This document shows positions 14,591-30,615 of a stretch of DNA of 30,615 nt, piece after piece (position 1 is the stretch's first letter; each line of letters starts with the position of its first letter). Below the pieces are notes generated by a model, which did no database searches, was not told the DNA's origin, and was given only the letters and a program-made list of their open reading frames with translations. The position numbers and the translations under genes are program-made. This stretch comes from a virus, in IMG/VR virus record IMGVR_UViG_3300030419_005624, positions 1 to 30,615 of that record, one strand, 5' to 3'.

Positions 14591-15481
14591 TTATAAATCC
14601 TCCCCAAACAATTCCTCTTCTACGTCTGATTGTATTGAACTTTTTTCTTCCCATGTTCCTTTGGTGTCTCGTATTAGAGTTACTACATTTTTATGAAACC
14701 CCGTTGAGGGTATTGCAAAAACTATTTTAACAACCAACCATGTTCCCGTTAATGAATTTGTATCATCTGCGCTAGAACTGCCGAGTATTTCAATAAAATC
14801 ACCAACCTTCAACTTAAGATTTCCAGGCATAGATCCAACAGCGATCTGCGCTGTGTATAGATTCATTAATGATTTTCTTATGAGGGGTGTTTTTCTTGGC
14901 GTATCCCAGAAAGTAGAATACGTTCTAGCAGTTCTTATATATTCTGCAAATCGAGAATCCCTCAAATATGAATCATCACCCGACTGATCTGTCATTTCTG
15001 AATATGGATTATCACAATCACAGTTCAAAGGATTGTGTGGTGTGGGTGGAAGACATCCCAGATAGTTATCTGGGTTTTCAGATAACTCTCGACGAATTTC
15101 TTCACACTCATTGGTATCCAATTCTGCATAATCCATCTCATCGTTCATTGGTTCTCGGAAAAGAGGAACTTTTGATGCTAGATCTGCAAACGGAGGTAAT
15201 TCATTTGGATCCCGATCTTCTTTTGCAGCACCCAAGTGTTCTGATTTGTGACATCTACATAGAGCTTCATATTCTGGTAGATAATCTGTTGCATCACCAA
15301 CACGAGGATCTTCTCCACCAGGCATGTATGTTTCCCACTTACCTTCAGTAGCACAAGATGAATTATCAGTAGGACCACTCTTTTTCAAACAAACATATTC
15401 ATGTTCACCGATGATTATTGGTTCTGCTTCTACTTTATTTTCGACGGTTTTGTTTGTGTATATTCTTTTTCTTTTTGACAT
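14591..15481 (-). CDS. Baseplate hub protein with gp27-type C-terminal barrel
   Basis: Encodes 296 aa. The N-terminal two thirds are hydrophilic with scattered cysteine pairs (CRCH, CDCD) and many acidic residues, without a recognisable fold. From about residue 180 comes a beta-barrel-like unit: SLMNLYTAQIAVGSMPGNL, KLKVGDFIEILG, SLTGTWLVVKIVFAI and FHKNVVTLIRDTKG. This order (small-to-large barrel strands, 'G..IEI', 'L.G.W.V..I.H/F', 'VTL.RD') is what the end of gp27/gpD-type hub proteins looks like. The upstream 1045-aa gene carries the gp27-like N-terminal domain, so the hub may be split over two genes. Start ATG overlaps the upstream stop by one base (TAATG). Assignment is inference from pattern. 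Confidence 0.55.
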   Translation of the reverse strand: MSKRKRIYTNKTVENKVEAEPIIIGEHEYVCLKKSGPTDNSSCATEGKWETYMPGGEDPRVGDATDYLPEYEALCRCHKSEHLGAAKEDRDPNELPPFADLASKVPLFREPMNDEMDYAELDTNECEEIRRELSENPDNYLGCLPPTPHNPLNCDCDNPYSEMTDQSGDDSYLRDSRFAEYIRTARTYSTFWDTPRKTPLIRKSLMNLYTAQIAVGSMPGNLKLKVGDFIEILGSSSADDTNSLTGTWLVVKIVFAIPSTGFHKNVVTLIRDTKGTWEEKSSIQSDVEEELFGEDL

Positions 15482-18400
15482 TACGGCTGATCTCCCTCGT
15501 CACCATCGTCTTCTTCTGGTATTTGATAATTACTCATATATGGACCGAATTCCACGACTCCCTCACAATTACCGTCGTGTGCATTTTCAACATCAAACAT
15601 ATAAATTGGAGTTTCTATTGTAGTCGTCTCAGCTTCTGATGTTGATATTGGCCAAGTGCAATCTTGACCATATTTTTTAACTCTTGTTGTTATAATTTCA
15701 GGATCTAATTCGTCTTCTTCTTTAATTAGCACCTGCAAATCTTCTATCTTCCCACCAAATGGTTTTGGTAAATTATCAGTACCAAATATTTTGTTGACTA
15801 AAATGAAAATACCATTTTCCCTACTAACACCTTCTTCGTTTTTAATTGATGCTGGGAAAATGCTGGTATTCTGAGATCCACCTTCTCCTTCACCACCTTC
15901 TCCTTCACCACCTTCTCCTTCACCACCTTCTCCTTCGCCGCCTTCTTCTTCCTCTTCCTCTTCGGGGTCGGGGCAATCAAATGGAAGGTCTTCAAATGGA
16001 AGCGGTAGTTCATATTCAGATTTTAAAATTGGTGTAAGTCGAACGATTCTTCCCAATAATTCACTTTCCTTTGATGATTCATCTTGGTAACTTTCATCTG
16101 GTGGTGATATAGTTTCATTTGGGTCATTTATTTCTGGGTTTGGTGATGCGGTGGTTGGATTTTGACCAAATACAGCCCCGACAGGCATTACAGAGAATGA
16201 TTCTGGATGATTGGGATAGTCTACACCATACATGTTAGTGCCAGGATTCACCCAAGTCCAATAATTAGAAAGTTCATTTAAATTCCATGCAACGTTGTTT
16301 CCACGAGCAAAAAATCCTTCAACAACACCTTCTTTGATTTTACATCTATTCCCTGCAAATCCCTCTCCGTCTGGGGACTGTAATTCATTGGCAATACTTC
16401 CATAATCACTTGCCGCTATTGGTAACGTAAAGCTTGTATGATAAGGCAGAGTCGCAATAACTTCGTCTGTTTCTTCATCTCGCTCAACAAAAAATTGAAT
16501 TCCCTTTGGAATCGCATAGTAATTTGCGTTCTTATTTGGATTTATGTTAAACCATTCTAGATGATCATGATTTAATTGATATAAATTATTTGTATCGTTT
16601 GGTTGAGCCTCACCGAGTGGATTTAAAGTTCGTTGATCGTATCTTTCATACACTCTCTTTGGTGAACCATCAGTATGGTATGCGTCACATGGTCTACCCA
16701 AGAAATCTTTTCCGCTTGGTTCGGGAGCTTCTTCGCCTCCCCCCTCACCACCTTCACCCTCTTCTATTTGTATTGTGGCATTATAATTTAATGTTGGATC
16801 CCACTTTGGAACTATTTCTACTGGGTAGAATGCATATCTGTATATTGGCCAATAAAGCATGTCGTGTGTAAAGGAATTGTCCGCAGGTCCCTCTTCCCCA
16901 CCCGTTTCATATGGAACTGGGCCACCTCCGATTGCTACTTCACCTAAATCTGTGTTACTGTATTTTCCCGGTGTTTCTACTCCAACCAAAACAGCAAACG
17001 TATCATCGGATTCACTTGGTCCCTCGGAGCAACACATGGAATATCTGTAATAGTTCCAATGTTGTTTTAATGTTGTTAGTAAAGAATATGCTAGTCGTTT
17101 TCTTTTCAATCTATATCTAATTGATCTTAGATTAAACAAAAGATTCGCATCTAATGGTGTTATATCAAACATCGTTTGCCACATTATGTCTTGGTTTTTA
17201 CCTTCGACATAAGAATATTGATCATTCACCGTAGGTGTTGGGTTATTATATTGACTAAAATTAAACCACCCGTAAATGTCGTCATATATCTGATTAATTT
17301 CTGGGCTAAATAATTTTTCGTCTTCTAGGTCTGCTACTTGTTGTGTTCCTATGAGAACCGAATTTCTTTTGAACAAAGCAAAATTTTCACTGGCTTCTTG
17401 TTCTTCTTCATCCATAGGATCTAGTATCACATCCTGCATACATGGACCTACGGGAAGACCAAGAAAATCACATCTATAGTCGAAGTTTATGTCTCGCTCT
17501 CTTAGCTTGAATCCGATTGGATCAGTATCATGGAATTGAGCCCCGGCTTTTATTTGTGCCCTATAATCATCTGTCCATGCTGGATTGTCTTGTAGAAGTT
17601 GTTCATAATTATCACCCTCAACCACCGGGAGATGATTAATGAGAACATTTTCTTTGAGATCAGCATTACCAATGCCATCATATATGCTATTATAGTTTGG
17701 TTCTACTAATTTATACTTTGAAGCAAACACACCTGAATTTACCAAATCATCAATATCAAATCCCTTTACACTTTTAACAGAATCAAATCTATATAAGTCA
17801 CCTTCATCTGATGATAACTGATATCTCCAGTATCCTTTTTGTTCTAAATATCTTTCTTTGATCAAAGATGTCATACTCTTAAAATACCATTTATTAAAAT
17901 CTTGCCAGAAAAAGTAATTTGGTGCATTAAGAGCGGAGTCAATTGCATTTTCCGCTAAATTATTAATCAATCGATCAACATTCAATTCCTTCACAACCTT
18001 GCCCCATGGATAAAGAAAATATCTTGGGCGTAACCAAACCCAATTTCTAGTTTTATCAATTTCCATGGGTTCTTTTGCTGTTGTTTGTCTTTCGATTTGA
18101 GATTCATATGGTTTTCCATCAAAATAATTTGGAGCTAATTGTTCCGACACATATTGGTGTATTGGTCCAACCCATTCATCATCACCAAATTCCCTGTCTT
18201 CTGGATAAACCTGCACATCTTCATATGAAGCAAAATCAACTTGATATAGCCTATTTGTTGATTCGCCCATTTGTAAATACATTCCAGGCATTTGATTTGA
18301 AACTAACTGTATTGATGTGATATAAAACTGTAATTCCGTAAAAGAGTCATCGATGCCTGGAGTTGAAAATGCAATTTTTAATTTTCCACCTGTACGCAAA

Positions 18401-18618
18401 TATGGTGATAATGTAACGATTCTATCTCCATACGCATCTTTAGGATCAACGTCTCTCAACATTACAGTTCCACGAACACCACCCTCAAACAAAGATTGTT
18501 CTATATTCATACCGCCGTACATAAAGGGAAACATAGGCTCTGTTGAAAAATCATAGCCACCGTTTCCGGGATTTAACGAAAACTCGTGCCATTTAATGTC
18601 ATTTTTATTATCTGCCAT
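15481..18618 (-). CDS. Large baseplate hub protein, gp27-like N-terminal domain with Glu/Gly-rich linkers
   Basis: Encodes 1045 aa, far longer than T4 gp27 (391 aa). Residues about 30-110 (FMYGGMNIEQSLFEGGVRGT, VMLRDVDPKDAYGD, LKIAFSTP, TELQFYITSIQLVS) parallel the T4 gp27 N-terminal tube-like domain, and NYFFWQDFNKWYF near residue 240 parallels the gp27 FVWQD segment. Two flexible acidic Gly-rich linkers are visible, near residues 616-630 (EEGEGGEGGGEEAPEP) and 886-914 (EEEEE followed by EGEGG repeats). Marine T4-like phages often carry a large hub-region protein of this kind. Likely forms the central trimeric hub under the tube. RBS GAGGG lies upstream of the ATG; it follows gp53 directly. 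Confidence 0.62.
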   Translation of the reverse strand: MADNKNDIKWHEFSLNPGNGGYDFSTEPMFPFMYGGMNIEQSLFEGGVRGTVMLRDVDPKDAYGDRIVTLSPYLRTGGKLKIAFSTPGIDDSFTELQFYITSIQLVSNQMPGMYLQMGESTNRLYQVDFASYEDVQVYPEDREFGDDEWVGPIHQYVSEQLAPNYFDGKPYESQIERQTTAKEPMEIDKTRNWVWLRPRYFLYPWGKVVKELNVDRLINNLAENAIDSALNAPNYFFWQDFNKWYFKSMTSLIKERYLEQKGYWRYQLSSDEGDLYRFDSVKSVKGFDIDDLVNSGVFASKYKLVEPNYNSIYDGIGNADLKENVLINHLPVVEGDNYEQLLQDNPAWTDDYRAQIKAGAQFHDTDPIGFKLRERDINFDYRCDFLGLPVGPCMQDVILDPMDEEEQEASENFALFKRNSVLIGTQQVADLEDEKLFSPEINQIYDDIYGWFNFSQYNNPTPTVNDQYSYVEGKNQDIMWQTMFDITPLDANLLFNLRSIRYRLKRKRLAYSLLTTLKQHWNYYRYSMCCSEGPSESDDTFAVLVGVETPGKYSNTDLGEVAIGGGPVPYETGGEEGPADNSFTHDMLYWPIYRYAFYPVEIVPKWDPTLNYNATIQIEEGEGGEGGGEEAPEPSGKDFLGRPCDAYHTDGSPKRVYERYDQRTLNPLGEAQPNDTNNLYQLNHDHLEWFNINPNKNANYYAIPKGIQFFVERDEETDEVIATLPYHTSFTLPIAASDYGSIANELQSPDGEGFAGNRCKIKEGVVEGFFARGNNVAWNLNELSNYWTWVNPGTNMYGVDYPNHPESFSVMPVGAVFGQNPTTASPNPEINDPNETISPPDESYQDESSKESELLGRIVRLTPILKSEYELPLPFEDLPFDCPDPEEEEEEEGGEGEGGEGEGGEGEGGEGEGGSQNTSIFPASIKNEEGVSRENGIFILVNKIFGTDNLPKPFGGKIEDLQVLIKEEDELDPEIITTRVKKYGQDCTWPISTSEAETTTIETPIYMFDVENAHDGNCEGVVEFGPYMSNYQIPEEDDGDEGDQP
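15878..15937. repeat. Four tandem 15-nt units encoding Glu/Gly linker
   Basis: On the plus strand the unit CCACCTTCTCCTTCA repeats four times in register (the last ends in G), followed by degenerate copies to about 15960. Read on the minus strand it encodes EGEGG units within the hub protein. In-frame copy-number change would lengthen or shorten the linker without a frameshift. Confidence 0.9.
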
Positions 18619-20398: not shown

Positions 20399-20839
20399 AT
20401 GGCATACAAAACAAAATTCAATCCTAAGAATACAAAAAAGTACCTCGGCGACCCAACAAAAATTATTTGTCGATCTACGTGGGAAAGAAAGCTATGTAAA
20501 TATATGGATATGAACGAGAACGTCATACGGTGGGGAAGTGAAGAAGTAGTGGTTCCCTATGTTTCTCCCGTTGATAAAAAAGTCCATAGGTACTACCCAG
20601 ACTTCATAGCAGAGATAAAAACCCCCAACAACGAAGTGAACACCTTTCTAATAGAAGTCAAACCACAGAAACAGACGATCAAACCAAAAAAAGGAAAGAA
20701 GAAAGCAAAAACGTTTCAAAATGAAATATTGACATACGCAATAAACAAAGAAAAATGGAAGTCTGCGTCAAGTTTTTGTTCAGACAAAGGATGGAAATTT
20801 AAAATCCTCACAGAAAAAGACCTATTTAAAGGAACGTAG
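20399..20839 (+). CDS. 4: Head completion protein gp4-like (PD-(D/E)XK-type fold)
   Basis: Encodes 146 aa (T4 gp4 is 150 aa). MAYKTKFNPKNTKKYLGDPT, then ICRSTWERKLCKYMD, IRWGSEEVVVPYVSPVDKKV and HRYYPDFIAEIK, FLIEVKP match T4 gp4 (gp50) closely in order and spacing. The Y-PDF...F-L-I-E-V-K-P arrangement is a PD-(D/E)XK nuclease core as in TnsA-like enzymes: Asp at about residue 72 and Glu/Lys at about 90-92. gp4 acts late in head maturation, making packaged heads competent for tail joining. The longer open frame back to 20210 lies inside divergent gp48 and is not used; ATG at 20399 follows GGGGAAACGG. Confidence 0.9.
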   Translation: MAYKTKFNPKNTKKYLGDPTKIICRSTWERKLCKYMDMNENVIRWGSEEVVVPYVSPVDKKVHRYYPDFIAEIKTPNNEVNTFLIEVKPQKQTIKPKKGKKKAKTFQNEILTYAINKEKWKSASSFCSDKGWKFKILTEKDLFKGT

Positions 20840-22289: not shown

Positions 22290-23129
22290 ATGGAAGAATT
22301 CGGTTTCGAAAAAATAGATGAAGATGATATCTTTAATCCAAAGCAGTCACCAGAAAATATGAGATCTTTACATGAAATAGAGAGAATACAGAATCAATCT
22401 GAAGAAGCTTCTTTGAGTGATGTTGAAATTAACACACATACTACGTCTATAGATTCCACCAACGAACCAACAGAAGAAGTATCATCTCTAATCACACCAA
22501 AAAACTTAAGCGATGTTGTTGCCCCAGAGGGGCAAATAAACCCAACACCAAATCCTATTGAATACGGTGGAGGTAGAGTTAACCCAACACCAAATCCTGT
22601 TGAATACCAAGAAGGGAAATTGAATCCATTACCAGAGTCCATTGAATACAGTGGAGGTAGAGTTAACCCAACACCAAATCCTGTTGAATATGGTGAAGGT
22701 AGAGTTAACCCAACACCAAATCCTGTTGAATATGGTGAAGGTAGAGTTAACCCAACACCAAATCCTGTTGAATACAATGAAGGGAAATTGAATCCATTAC
22801 CCGAACCCATTAAATATAACAATCCAAAAGTAAATAGCTCAATACAATCGAGTGTTTTACCAGACATGAACACAGATAAATCATTAACAGTCGAAACCAG
22901 TAAAAACCTTCAAGTAAATCAAAATTTAACATTTGATCTAAAAAATCAAAATTACACACCAGTTGCACCACAAAGACAATCCACATATGAACGTAACATA
23001 CAAACTACCCCAGCATCAAATGATAATTTTACATTTGAAATTCCAACGGCATTGTCATCCAGCAACAGCAATACAAGAAGAGCAAATAGAAAAAAAGCGC
23101 CCCCCAGTTGGAGGGCGCAGCACGGATAA
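22290..23129 (+). CDS. Proline-rich repeat protein of unknown function
   Basis: Encodes 279 aa. Residues about 1-80 are acidic and helical-looking. Residues about 81-182 are seven 14-residue units with core N-P-T/L-P-N/E-P/S-V/I-E-Y followed by G/E/K-rich links, encoded by a 42-nt DNA repeat. The rest is Gln/Asn/Ser/Thr-rich, ending in a basic RRANRKKAPPSWRAQHG whose codons also form the gp32 terminator hairpin. No enzyme motif or known fold is recognised. It follows the candidate tail-chaperone cassette by 1 nt with RBS AAAGGGG, a place where many phages have the tape measure, but at 279 aa it is too short to be one for a normal myovirus tail. A hub or scaffold helper (gp28-like position) is possible. 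Confidence 0.65.
   Translation: MEEFGFEKIDEDDIFNPKQSPENMRSLHEIERIQNQSEEASLSDVEINTHTTSIDSTNEPTEEVSSLITPKNLSDVVAPEGQINPTPNPIEYGGGRVNPTPNPVEYQEGKLNPLPESIEYSGGRVNPTPNPVEYGEGRVNPTPNPVEYGEGRVNPTPNPVEYNEGKLNPLPEPIKYNNPKVNSSIQSSVLPDMNTDKSLTVETSKNLQVNQNLTFDLKNQNYTPVAPQRQSTYERNIQTTPASNDNFTFEIPTALSSSNSNTRRANRKKAPPSWRAQHG
22539..22832 (+). repeat. Seven 42-nt tandem repeats in coding sequence
   Basis: Units begin at 22539, 22581, 22623, 22665, 22707, 22749 and 22791, exactly 42 nt apart. Units 1, 2, 4, 5 and 6 carry AACCCAACACCAAATCCT; units 3 and 7 carry a variant AATCCATTACC(A/C)GA. Two adjacent units (4 and 5) are almost identical at DNA level, pointing to recent duplication. The frame is kept throughout. 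Confidence 0.95.
23090..23118 (-). terminator. Rho-independent terminator for gp32, inside the convergent gene
   Basis: Minus strand: a GC-rich hairpin (arms GCGCCC and GGGCGC, extended by a GG/CC pair across a one-base bulge) followed by seven T. It lies 28 bp beyond the gp32 stop but within the last 40 nt of the convergent repeat-protein gene, so the same bases encode the C-terminus KKAPPSWRA on the plus strand. Confidence 0.8.
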
Positions 23130-25814: not shown

Positions 25815-27113
25815 ATGGCAAAACAGCATAGAAATAATAGAAGCAGATTTAATAGGCAACGAACTGGAACGGGAGAATTCTTCTCGTATACTTTAGTTAC
25901 CGGCGGCAATTTTTACGGAATTAAAGTTGGAAATTCAATAGACGACTTCTTAAATTTTGATCAAAGAACATCGTCCACACCAGATGTTGTTATAAATGGA
26001 AATACTGCGGTAATAGACTTTAGTTCTTCTCAGACAAAAAAAGATTTAAATTATCTGAAGGCATTATCAGATACCTTAACTTCGGGTAATACATTTACCG
26101 TTACACATGGTGAATATTATGATCCAAATACCGAACATTACGCAGATATATCTGGAACATATACATTCGAAGGAATGTTTAGAGATACGGTCATAAAAGC
26201 TACCTTCGACTCTCTCACAAATATTCCGACCGGTATTGTTCGTTATTCATCTGAATACTTTGCTGATGTTCCTCAGATTGATCTTTTAGGTACGGCAAGC
26301 ACTGGTAGAGAACAATTTTACTTGAAAAATTATCTTGGAACCGAGTCCGCACCATCATTTACTAGTATCGGAACTAGAGTAGATGATTATATTACTGTTT
26401 CTGATAGCACTACAAATAATAAAGCTTTCCGAGTAGATGACTTTTACTTGGATCCAAATGGAACTGAAGTCGTTATTTTGGGTGCAACCGCCGCAATAGA
26501 AGAAGATAGGATTGGAATCACATCACAGGTTGAGTTGTATAGAGAAAGATCACTGAAAACATCCAGCCCAGACGAATTCTTACGTATAGAAACATTAAAA
26601 ATTACTGTTGGTAAAGAAAATGATGATTATTATTTCATGATTAATGGAGTTCGAAATCCAAAGTTAACTCTAACAAGAGGTATAACTTATATAATAGATC
26701 AGACTGATGTGTCAAATTACAGGGGACCAAACAATATAAATCTTCCTCTGCGATTATCAAAAATACGAGACGGACTATTCAACGCTGCTGCTCCCGTTGG
26801 AACAACTGAGACCATATTTGTTACAGACGGAGTTACTTATCCAAGAACAGAAGCCAACATGTTTATTTTTGAACCAAGGTTTGTACGTAATAGCACAGTC
26901 TATTATTACTCCAGTGCGGTGGAGGGTATGGGTGGTGAATTAAAAATAGATGGTGCATATTCAGTATATAACCAAGTACTTAGTGCTCCAGCATCAATAC
27001 CACCTAATTATATTTTCGGAAGAGATGAAAACGAAAGACTACTACGAGCAGCAAACGCAATCTCCAATACTGGCCAAGGAAATCAACAGTTTAGAACTGG
27101 ATATGACTATTAA
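25815..27113 (+). CDS. Probable virion protein with cupredoxin-like marine-phage domain
   Basis: Encodes 432 aa. Basic Asn/Arg/Gln-rich N-terminus (KQHRNNRSRFNRQRTGTG), then several beta segments with Thr/Ser-rich turns. Residues about 270-375 (YYFMINGVRNPKLTLTRGIT, YIIDQTDVSNY, LPLRLSKIRDG, STVYYYSSAVEGMGGELKI) match the 'P.LTL.RG.TY.FDQSD.SN..HPLRFS...YYYC..H.GMGG' domain common in marine phage structural proteins, a cupredoxin-like fold. The usual His and Cys positions are replaced (NLPLRLS, YYYSSAVEG), so copper binding is unlikely. The C-terminus (NYIFGRDENERLLRAANAIS) may be an attachment helix. The stop codon overlaps that of the convergent gene. Confidence 0.6.
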   Translation: MAKQHRNNRSRFNRQRTGTGEFFSYTLVTGGNFYGIKVGNSIDDFLNFDQRTSSTPDVVINGNTAVIDFSSSQTKKDLNYLKALSDTLTSGNTFTVTHGEYYDPNTEHYADISGTYTFEGMFRDTVIKATFDSLTNIPTGIVRYSSEYFADVPQIDLLGTASTGREQFYLKNYLGTESAPSFTSIGTRVDDYITVSDSTTNNKAFRVDDFYLDPNGTEVVILGATAAIEEDRIGITSQVELYRERSLKTSSPDEFLRIETLKITVGKENDDYYFMINGVRNPKLTLTRGITYIIDQTDVSNYRGPNNINLPLRLSKIRDGLFNAAAPVGTTETIFVTDGVTYPRTEANMFIFEPRFVRNSTVYYYSSAVEGMGGELKIDGAYSVYNQVLSAPASIPPNYIFGRDENERLLRAANAISNTGQGNQQFRTGYDY

Positions 27114-27460
27114 CCTCTAGTGATTGTTAGTATTTTTTCTATTTGCCCATCAATAACTGATGTTCTATTTGGCCAAAAGATATACTCTTTGTCTGGATTC
27201 TTTTTTAAGTTATTCAATAGAGGTATAATCATCAATTCAACTTGATTTAACTTTTGTTTATATTGCTCATCCAATAACTCTTTATATTCATCAATATCAG
27301 ATCCAGTTGACAGAGTGTCAATCTTAGATAAAACATCTTCGATTTTGTTTTCTAACGAACTTATCTCTGCATCTTGATTATCAGTGACATTTACTTCACT
27401 AGAATCAGCAAAAGAAATTCCAAAATCAAAATCTTCAATGAATGATTCGTTATCTGCCAT
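27110..27460 (-). CDS. Conserved small phage protein, coiled-coil
   Basis: Encodes 116 aa from ATG at 27460 (AAGGGAACGTC precedes; the longer frame to 27529 lies in the upstream gene). N-terminal acidic peptide DNESFIEDFDFGISFADSSE, a coiled-coil (SSLENKIEDVLSKIDTLS), and a conserved end: KELLDEQYKQKLNQVE, then MIIPLLNNLKKNPDKEYI and FWPNRTSVIDGQIEKI. The 'PLL.NL.KNP....I.WPNR...I..QI.KI' block occurs in many T4-like phages in my memory, without a known function. It overlaps the upstream exported-looking gene by 11 bp, so the two are probably co-translated. Confidence 0.65.
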   Translation of the reverse strand: MADNESFIEDFDFGISFADSSEVNVTDNQDAEISSLENKIEDVLSKIDTLSTGSDIDEYKELLDEQYKQKLNQVELMIIPLLNNLKKNPDKEYIFWPNRTSVIDGQIEKILTITRG

Positions 27461-27839
27461 GACGTTCCCTTTTATTTTTGTTTCTTTTACCGGAACGTTG
27501 AATCTTTTTGATATCTCGTTGATCATCAACTCTGACTATAAAGTTACCATTGAAGAAAAATACCTTTGCTTTAATTCCCTTTGATGCAAGTTCTTCCTCA
27601 ATAACCATACGAATCATATCTACTCTGGATTCTCTGTCTTGTGAAAATCCTCTAGATCCCTTTCTTCGTTCACCGTCTCGTCTTCCTCTTTGACCTCTAT
27701 TGTCGCCGCGAAGTTGGAAATCGGGGGCATTATTAAATCGTGGAGGATCGGTGATGATGTCATTCACTGGGTACACGACGTAACCGGGTGAAGAAAGTTC
27801 TGCTACGACCGAAAGAATCATAGTGGCTAATAAATTCAT
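27450..27839 (-). CDS. Small exported-looking basic protein
   Basis: Encodes 129 aa. A hydrophobic N-terminus (MNLLATMILSVVAELSSPG) looks like a short signal peptide, but the basic n-region is missing. Residues about 25-70 are Arg/Gly/Asn/Gln-rich and disordered (QLRGDNRGQRGRRDGERRKG), followed by a small alpha/beta segment: DMIRMVIEEELASKGIKAKV and FFFNGNFIVRVDDQRDIKK, then a basic tail. I do not recognise the family. A strong AAGGAG ribosome binding site precedes the ATG. It lies in one transcript with the PEP-CTERM-like gene upstream. Confidence 0.55.
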   Translation of the reverse strand: MNLLATMILSVVAELSSPGYVVYPVNDIITDPPRFNNAPDFQLRGDNRGQRGRRDGERRKGSRGFSQDRESRVDMIRMVIEEELASKGIKAKVFFFNGNFIVRVDDQRDIKKIQRSGKRNKNKRERHGR

Positions 27840-27864: not shown

Positions 27865-28281
27865 TTAGCTTTTACGACGACGCATCAAAAATCCCAATGC
27901 CCCCATAATCCCAAGCGTTGCAGGACCAGGAATCTCAATTGGCTTAATGGTTGTAAAGTTATGAAAATTTCCGTCATAGTCTGAGAAAAGATATGCATAA
28001 GTTTCCTCATAACCAAGTCCATTACCAAAAACTGTGAATGATTTCCAGTCGCCGGGATCAATTTCATAATCATGCACAAAAGAGCCAAATACTTCGGCGT
28101 AAGTTATACTATACTGCGAGTCTTCATCTAAACGAATTCCATATCGAAATTTATCAAATTCTTCCCAATATGCGACTCGAAAACGACCAGACCAGTTATC
28201 GGTTTCAAAGTGATGAACATCAACATAGTCTGGTGGCGCAATGCTAGAAAGAACACTGGCCGTAATAATAGCTGAAATCAT
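27865..28281 (-). CDS. PEP-CTERM-like exported protein
   Basis: Encodes 138 aa. Visible parts are a short hydrophobic N-terminus (MISAIITASVLSSIAPP), a beta-rich body (WSGRFRVAYWEEFDKFRYGI, SQYSITYAEVFGSFVHDY, KSFTVFGNGLGYEETYAYLF), and a C-terminal tail IPGPATLGIMGALGFLMRRR followed by Lys-Ser. That end is a PEP-CTERM-type sorting signal (Pro-x-Pro-Ala-Thr, hydrophobic helix, Arg cluster) with Gly in place of the usual Glu. In bacteria such proteins are processed by an exosortase and linked to extracellular polysaccharide or surface. No exosortase is in the window, so the host would have to supply it. RBS AAAGG; a stop codon six bases before the ATG rules out a longer N-terminus. Confidence 0.65.
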   Translation of the reverse strand: MISAIITASVLSSIAPPDYVDVHHFETDNWSGRFRVAYWEEFDKFRYGIRLDEDSQYSITYAEVFGSFVHDYEIDPGDWKSFTVFGNGLGYEETYAYLFSDYDGNFHNFTTIKPIEIPGPATLGIMGALGFLMRRRKS

Positions 28282-28308
28282 AAATTACCTTTCTCAAAAT
28301 GTTAAAAA

Positions 28309-28382
28309 TAGCTCCGGTGGGATTCGAACCCACACTGTACGGATTTTAAGTCCGTTGCCTCTGCCTATTGGGCTACGGAGCC
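28309..28382 (-). tRNA. tRNA-Leu (anticodon UAA), class I body
   Basis: Cloverleaf of 74 nt: acceptor GGCTCCG/CGGAGCT with a terminal G-U pair, D-arm with GCC/GGC, anticodon stem ACGGA/TCCGT with loop CTTAAAA (anticodon TAA), five-base variable loop, T-arm GTGGG-TTCGAAT-CCCAC, discriminator A. No CCA is encoded. The short variable loop is unlike bacterial tRNA-Leu, which has a long variable arm, although phage tRNAs with this anticodon and a short arm are known to me. It is preceded by its own TTGATT-N16-TATAAT promoter. Confidence 0.88.
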
Positions 28383-28390
28383 ATGCATAT

Positions 28391-28418
28391 ATTATACCAT
28401 GAAACTCCGCAGAATCAA
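28391..28418 (-). promoter_or_regulatory. sigma70-type promoter before tRNA-Leu
   Basis: Minus strand: TTGATT (28413-28418), 16-bp spacer, TATAAT (28391-28396), 8 bp before the tRNA 5' end. The same spacer length is found in the two other consensus promoters in this window. It would transcribe tRNA-Leu and the PEP-CTERM-like gene behind it. Confidence 0.65.
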
Positions 28419-28419
28419 A

Positions 28420-28626
28420 TCATTCGGATAGAAATTCACCTTCATAATCAACTGCATCCTGAATAAATGTACTAAGAGAATCTGGTGATGTCCATCCCTT
28501 TGTTCCATTTTCATACTTGACTTCAATGAGTTGGTTACCTTCCCTATCTACTTTTGTTGCCACAACGGTGGCTTTCTTTTTTGTAGGAATATGAATAACC
28601 TCTTCCATCAGCATAAACTGTTTCAT
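28420..28626 (-). CDS. Small unknown protein, KOW/SH3-like
   Basis: Encodes 68 aa: EEVIHIPTKKKATVVATKVD, then GNQLIEVKYENGTKGWTSPD, then an acidic end. The 'V..P...K.A.VV.......QL.EV.Y..G..GW' pattern suggests a small SH3/KOW-like beta-barrel, which in other proteins binds nucleic acid or peptides. Start ATG overlaps the deaminase stop by one base (TAATG). The function is unknown. Confidence 0.55.
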   Translation of the reverse strand: MKQFMLMEEVIHIPTKKKATVVATKVDREGNQLIEVKYENGTKGWTSPDSLSTFIQDAVDYEGEFLSE

Positions 28627-28994
28627 TAGTATTCCAACCTTTCATACCCTTTTCGGGTTGTATAGTAGATTTTATCAAACATTAACTTGCACCACGGGCA
28701 ACAGAGAGAACAAGGATGAGATAGACGAGAATCACCAAACCTGTTAAACCGAAAGTTGACCAATTCAAGATTCTTTCTTTCTTTGCATCTGAGTAATGCA
28801 TCCAATTCCGAATGAACCTCATCATATCTATATCCGATCTTCTTTGCTTGTGGGTGAGATTTAAGTTGATTTGTTCCTATTGCAATGACATTATTACGTA
28901 CCAGAATTAACGAAACGTGTTTCTTTTGTCTTGTACTTTGCAATGCATAAGGCAATGCAATTTCCGCAAGTTTATCAAATTTACGTTGATTCAT
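28626..28994 (-). CDS. Zinc-dependent cytidine/deoxycytidylate deaminase-like protein
   Basis: Encodes 122 aa (T4 dCMP deaminase is 193 aa). RKFDKLAEIALPYALQS and ILVRNNVIAIGTNQLKSHP, then the catalytic HSE at residues 61-63 (EVHSELDALL) and HPCSLCCPWCKLMF with the P-C-x-x-C at 94-98, are the CDA-fold active site: His61, Cys95 and Cys98 as zinc ligands, Glu63 as proton shuttle. A further CPWC follows. Short proteins with this arrangement are common in marine phages. The substrate is unknown: a nucleotide or nucleic acid. It sits between two tRNA genes; the ATG is only 7 nt after the tRNA-Arg 3' end and there is no Shine-Dalgarno. Confidence 0.75.
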   Translation of the reverse strand: MNQRKFDKLAEIALPYALQSTRQKKHVSLILVRNNVIAIGTNQLKSHPQAKKIGYRYDEVHSELDALLRCKERKNLELVNFRFNRFGDSRLSHPCSLCCPWCKLMFDKIYYTTRKGYERLEY

Positions 28995-30520: not shown

Positions 30521-30615
30521 TTAAAGAGCGTAGCGAGTACCCATGGAGTCGAACCCGTAGGTACGCTCACCGGGGTGAGTGTCCTCCATGTAGTAACGGG
30601 TCTTACCAGTGGGAG
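30521..30615 (-). CDS. 3' end of a protein gene (start outside the window)
   Basis: The last 30 codons read PTGKTRYYMEDTHPGERTYG, then FDSMGTRYAL, then TAA at 30521-30523. Codon use with C/T-ending Tyr and Asp codons differs a little from the AT-rich neighbours, as in a highly expressed gene. No family is recognised from this fragment. Confidence 0.55.
   Translation of the reverse strand, partial: PTGKTRYYMEDTHPGERTYGFDSMGTRYAL

Follow-up and report, generated by a model that had tools for sequence, protein, structure and literature searches.

The stretch of DNA analysed here (the window, 30,615 nucleotides) belongs to a 38.9-kb virus record of a T4-like phage known from metagenomes only. 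Its minus strand carries a gene for a 138-aa protein that starts with MISAIITASVLSSIAPPDYV and ends with EIPGPATLGIMGALGFLMRRRKS, with the following features:

27865..28281, minus strand: gene of the 138-aa protein with a PEP-CTERM-like tail (ATG start, ribosome-binding-like site, homologues in L002, L003 and L011/L034)
28288..28295, minus strand: ribosome-binding-like sequence GAGAAAGG, 6 nt 5' of the ATG, as read from the sequence
28237..28281, minus strand: hydrophobic N-terminus MISAIITASVLSSIA without Lys or Arg, a possible short signal peptide
27931..28236, minus strand: central domain, residues 16-117, probably all beta
27910..27930, minus strand: PGPATLG motif, residues 118-124, with PGP where PEP is expected
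27883..27909, minus strand: hydrophobic stretch IMGALGFLM, residues 125-133, within the model helix 120-136
27868..27882, minus strand: basic end RRRKS (RRRRR in two relatives)

The open reading frame at 27865-28281 is real. The initial annotation had read a three-part C-terminal tail in it, composed of a PGPAT motif, a hydrophobic stretch and an Arg cluster, together with a hydrophobic N-terminus; all of these are present, and the three-part tail goes beyond chance. Among the 34 predicted proteins of the window the 138-aa protein ranks second in N-terminal and first in C-terminal hydrophobicity. The N-terminus has no basic n-region and a proline occupies position +1 of the likely signal-peptidase site; a signal peptide is plausible but weak. 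The AlphaFold model (pLDDT 44.7) comprises seven strands and a C-terminal helix at residues 120-136, and because of its low confidence the central domain provides no firm clue to function. A fold search with this model returned no match at E<=0.001, and the weak lectin-like and carbohydrate-binding-module-like sandwich matches, none of which reached that threshold, were not counted as evidence.

The T4-like genes of the phage encode the tail-sheath stabiliser gp15, the head closure protein Hc2, a baseplate wedge protein, the tail tube and a gp32-type single-strand binding protein. Its distance from cultured phages is seen in the best matches of the wedge protein (25-29%) and of the binding protein (54-65%). 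Repeated VNPTPNPVEY units are encoded at 22290-23129, in a protein of 279 aa that measures 293 aa in L002, a nearly identical record. The homologue in L003 of the gene at 25815-27113 has a cupredoxin-like YYYCGQHAGMGASI near its end, where the window reads YYYSSAVEGMGGEL, so that the Cys and His of the L003 pattern are lost. A TnsA-like endonuclease domain (PF08722, 77 bits) lies at 20408-20839 amid the structural region and is 60% identical in G002 and G003. A UDP-glucose/GDP-mannose dehydrogenase-like gene, for a sugar-precursor enzyme, belongs to the gene content of this phage as well (L033:3059-3898, record 33058-33897). The window stops at 30615, where record G000 has a run of unknown bases; a stretch coding for RFRSTKYTKFVNFFCTHYSP is found on both sides of this run, perhaps a scaffolding duplication.

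Homologues of the 138-aa protein were detected in three viral records, L002 (99%), L003 (86%) and L011/L034 (partial, cut at the contig end). The L003 homologue ends with IPGPATLGVLGGLGFAMRRRRR and that of L011/L034 reads IPGPATLGALAGLSLTVRRRRR; hence the tail is kept in all four phage variants, with PGPATLG identical in 4/4. The hydrophobic stretch is variable and mainly apolar, reading VLGGLGFAM and ALAGLSLTV in relatives. No convincing homologue was found in annotated phages, and a wider search with an alignment of the family gave no relatives beyond these records. Scanning 2.9 million viral contigs for PGPATLG...RR recovered, at protein C-termini, only this family. Five other contigs of the viral collection (L063, L064, L065, L066 and L067) encode canonical PEP-CTERM tails of the VPEPATLALL...RRRR type, and L063 and L067 share one 250-aa frame; these proteins are unrelated to the 138-aa protein and perhaps come from provirus flanks or host DNA.

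Comparison of the window with L003 gave a dN of 0.079 and a dS of 1.14 (dN/dS 0.07). Within the 21 residues 116-136, 11 codons show silent change only: the seven PGPATLG codons all do, and of the three Arg codons two went from CGT to AGA. The four amino-acid changes of this region all fall within the hydrophobic stretch and remain apolar or small. As the motif codons changed silently and the replacements are confined to the hydrophobic stretch, selection acts on the PGPATLG motif itself and not on hydrophobicity alone.

Counterparts of the tail exist in cells. The pattern (apolar)PGPATLG...RR occurs at 17 places in a set of about 85,000 species genomes, and only two of these places are true tail-type protein ends, TIPGPATLGLLAIGALAILRRRR and AVPGPATLGLLAIGAMAVIRRRRRA; both come after dockerin-like repeats in a single Phycisphaerae MAG, CSMAG_2510 (L022, L025), whose genome encodes two exosortases above the PF09721 cut-off. 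The lead towards Planctomycetes given by the initial annotation holds up, the only cellular genome with the exact tail being this Phycisphaerae MAG. The Gly-for-Glu change from which it was drawn is, however, uncommon, the exact motif occurring in 1/392 Planctomycetota genomes. Since no second genome among the 392 has it, PGP is rare and not typical in this phylum. The whole-protein phage profile had 37 matches in 25 of the 392 Planctomycetota genomes, 28 of which end at the last residues of the profile, and each of the 14 tail-matching loci that were read has a tail with P-x-P and a basic terminus (VPEPAT, IPAPAS, VPAPGV etc.). As a control, the same profile had three matches in 198 Actinomycetota, none at the tail. 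By these matches the phage tail resembles the PEP-CTERM tails of Planctomycetota; together with its conservation in four variants, this bears out the PEP-CTERM-like character that had been assigned to it. For the central domain these profile searches detected no cellular homologue.

The best Pfam model for the 138-aa protein is PF07589 (PEP-CTERM), whose match covers the tail, residues 118-136, and scores 11.7 bits against a curated cut-off of 20.7; E is 0.31 when 24,736 models are searched and ~1e-5 if counted for that one model. The L003 protein scores 11.9 with TIGR02595 (cut-off 16) and the L034 protein 15.6 with GC_trans_RRR (cut-off 15.85), and every HMM score of the phage tails lies below its curated cut-off. 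Low HMM scores had been named beforehand as speaking against a sorting tail, and low they are, yet genuine Planctomycete tails that carry PGP or PAP lie close to or narrowly below the same cut-offs: two such non-PEP tails, taken for comparison, reach 19.0 and 19.3 with PF07589, both <20.7, and 15.9 and 17.0 with TIGR02595. As these two straddle or just miss them, non-PEP variants face strict cut-offs. The phage tail has a helix of the expected kind (~14 residues; model helix 120-136) followed by a basic cluster at the C-terminus (RRRKS or RRRRR). Because it carries Pro-Gly-Pro instead of Pro-Glu-Pro and scores under the cut-offs, we do not file the protein as a PEP-CTERM member; we nevertheless think it probable that it works like one.

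The most serious alternative, which we consider unlikely yet well worth weighing, is a plain C-tail-anchored or two-helix inner-membrane phage protein, in which the Arg cluster would set topology only and no exosortase would take part; such a protein could serve as a superinfection factor like Imm or Sp or affect the timing of lysis. The sub-cut-off scores and the weak signal peptide would fit such a protein, and a hydrophobic helix with a basic end is enough for anchoring. However, an anchor needs no PGPATLG motif, which selection has kept exactly while the helix drifts, no other gene-like ORF with a P-x-P tail and a basic end occurs at the 83 relative loci, and the PEP-CTERM tails found with the phage profile are all from Planctomycetota, the Actinomycetota control giving none.

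The gene sits behind a tRNA gene in a region that differs among related phages:

28308..28383, minus strand: tRNA-Leu (taa), 76 nt (ARAGORN), 26 nt 5' of the tail gene
28391..28418, minus strand: promoter-like TTGATT-16-TATAAT 5' of tRNA-Leu (the number of such sites is not above that in shuffles)
27450..27839, minus strand: neighbour (second) gene, 129 aa, hydrophobic N-terminus MNLLATMILSVVAELSSPGYV, 83-98% identical in cassette-bearing relatives

In the window, L002 and L003, tRNA-Leu is followed by the tail gene and, after it, the second gene; the L034 record begins inside the tail gene, and the second gene is present in all four tail-gene records. At the corresponding place after the tRNA, the more distant phages L114, L155, L178 and L181 carry a second-gene homologue but no tail gene, and in L113 other cargo precedes this homologue. 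In the sister phages L097 and L098, whose binding protein is 90% identical, the slot is empty (L097:6729-6860). Judging from this arrangement, the lineage has a slot for variable cargo 3' of tRNA-Leu, and the tail gene is optional cargo, gained or lost among sister phages. At the place matching the promoter-like site of the window, which the cargo genes possibly also use, L097 has TTGACA and TATAAT. In L114 and L155 the second gene is followed by further genes, one of them for a long protein, weakly trypsin-like in L155.

Between G002 and the window the tail gene, the second gene, a deaminase-like gene (28626-28994, 98% identical) and a 68-aa gene are 86-98% identical, in contrast to 23-60% for baseplate, tail and most other structural genes and 74% for the binding protein. 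Given this disparity, the cargo block either moved between phages or is far more constrained. The second protein and the 138-aa protein hold ranks 1 and 2 for N-terminal hydropathy among the 34 window proteins, and for this reason both cassette proteins may act at the envelope. The second protein combines a conserved hydrophobic N-terminus with a variable Arg/Gly-rich middle and a conserved EEELxSKGIEAKVFFFNGNFIV-like end; it gave no convincing family match, and its structure model is of low confidence.

There are three further alternatives. A minor virion or assembly protein with a hydrophobic basic tail arisen by chance would suit a gene placed between the structural genes and the tRNA cluster; we regard it as quite improbable, as the empty site in L097 and L098 implies that the gene is not essential to the virion, and the hydrophobic N-terminus is unlike those of structural proteins. 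A substrate of another C-terminal sorting system (myxosortase, rhombosortase or archaeosortase) is less probable still. The best NCBIfam scores are indeed those of MYXO-CTERM models, 12.8 bits for the window protein and 16.4 and 18.6 bits for its phage relatives (cut-off 20), and relatively the phage tails score better with these than with PEP-CTERM models. MYXO-CTERM nevertheless requires an invariant Cys in its signature motif (PMC11980579), and as the phage tail contains no cysteine we exclude it. Neither the Pro-Gly-Phe motif of PGF-CTERM/archaeosortase, in place of which PGP is found, nor the Gly-Gly signature of GlyGly-CTERM/rhombosortase is present in the window tail; no model of either kind gave a score. 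Equally improbable is a captured host PEP-CTERM gene carried as a neutral passenger with no present benefit to the phage, for which presence and absence among sister phages would speak, but which is hard to reconcile with strong purifying selection at a dS of about 1.1 and with retention across phages whose structural genes are mostly 23-60% identical.

As to the host, the tRNA-Leu(taa) has its best match in Phycisphaerae (88% over 77 nt, 99.6 bits), where ARAGORN also calls a tRNA-Leu(taa). The only match among those listed for 149 Planctomycetia reached 68.9 bits, none was found at E<=1e-10 in 150 Pseudomonadota, and the best among the phage matches listed had 73 bits. The groups compared were Phycisphaerae, Planctomycetia and Pseudomonadota, and it is only among these that the tRNA favours Phycisphaerae. 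At 76 nt the gene is without the long variable arm usual in tRNA-Leu, and tRNA-Leu(taa) genes of 74-76 nt are also found in Phycisphaerae genomes (L070, L072, L078, L079). No CRISPR-spacer link and no prophage or shared-DNA link to the phage was found among 397 Phycisphaerae; the matches listed all fall in one stretch of the 15481-18618 ORF and were taken as Glu/Gly low complexity. The tRNA-Arg was ruled out as a host clue, Klebsiella phages matching it at 91%. The phage proteins are otherwise closest to those of cyanophages and marine single-cell viruses; psbA (PF00124) is absent from eight relative records, fragments of 45-85 kb, which argues weakly against a cyanophage host. From these data we infer that the host is possibly a member of the Phycisphaerae, a group with few known phages.

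According to the published model, Sec exports PEP-CTERM proteins, their C-terminal helix keeps them in place, and exosortase processes them at the motif (PMC1569441, PMC12188702). The parts of the 138-aa protein suit this route. We propose, as the probable reading, that a marine-type T4-like lineage of phages carries the gene as optional cargo and that the 138-aa protein is a small secreted one, ending in a PGP-for-PEP exosortase signal, that is passed to the exosortase of the host. The hydrophobic N-terminus would route it into the Sec pathway, and the C-terminal helix and Arg cluster would halt it in the inner membrane; the host exosortase would then recognise PGPATLG at the periplasmic face and cut the tail off, so that the probably beta-rich domain would be handed to the cell surface or the exopolysaccharide. 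Once displayed, the domain could alter the surface of the infected cell, most plausibly by receptor masking or by exclusion of a second phage, which would be the most economical role for an optional phage envelope protein. Such export, exosortase cleavage and function are what we consider most likely; the sub-cut-off HMM scores, the Gly in place of Glu, the uncharged N-terminus and the Pro after the likely signal-peptidase site count against the exosortase reading. More tentatively, and rather doubtfully as a whole, a lytic T4-like phage of Planctomycetota (Phycisphaerae) might use the host exosortase for placement at the surface or in the exopolysaccharide, with a swappable module for superinfection exclusion or receptor masking behind a phage tRNA.

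Among the papers listed in literature searches none appears, by title and abstract, to deal with an exosortase-type sorting tail on a phage protein. If the proposal is true, a phage borrows the surface-sorting pathway of its host, and the effect of PEP-CTERM sorting on phage infection could be put to a direct test. The tail would also serve as a sequence handle by which an uncultured lineage of marine-type T4-like phages is tied to hosts with an exosortase, possibly Phycisphaerae.

Among known systems, Imm and Sp of T4 are superinfection-exclusion membrane proteins whose site of action is the envelope of an infected cell; the 138-aa protein would likewise be a small accessory phage protein at this site, whereas Imm and Sp are not known to rely on C-terminal sorting signals. 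MYXO-CTERM/myxosortase (TIGR03901), which gave the best sub-threshold NCBIfam score, has the helix and Arg cluster in common with the phage tail but differs in its invariant cysteine. The dockerin-like proteins of CSMAG_2510 have the same PGPATLG motif, apolar stretch and C-terminal Arg cluster; they are cellular, however, with dockerin-like repeats where the phage protein has its central domain, and no homology was seen outside the tail. From the PEP-CTERM/exosortase (EpsH) system described by Haft et al. 2006 (PMC1569441; models TIGR02595 and PF07589) the phage protein differs in having Gly for the near-invariant Glu, in its sub-cut-off scores and in being encoded by a phage, yet it shares the P-x-P motif, the helix and the basic cluster, as well as a hydrophobic N-terminus and a small domain without known homologues.
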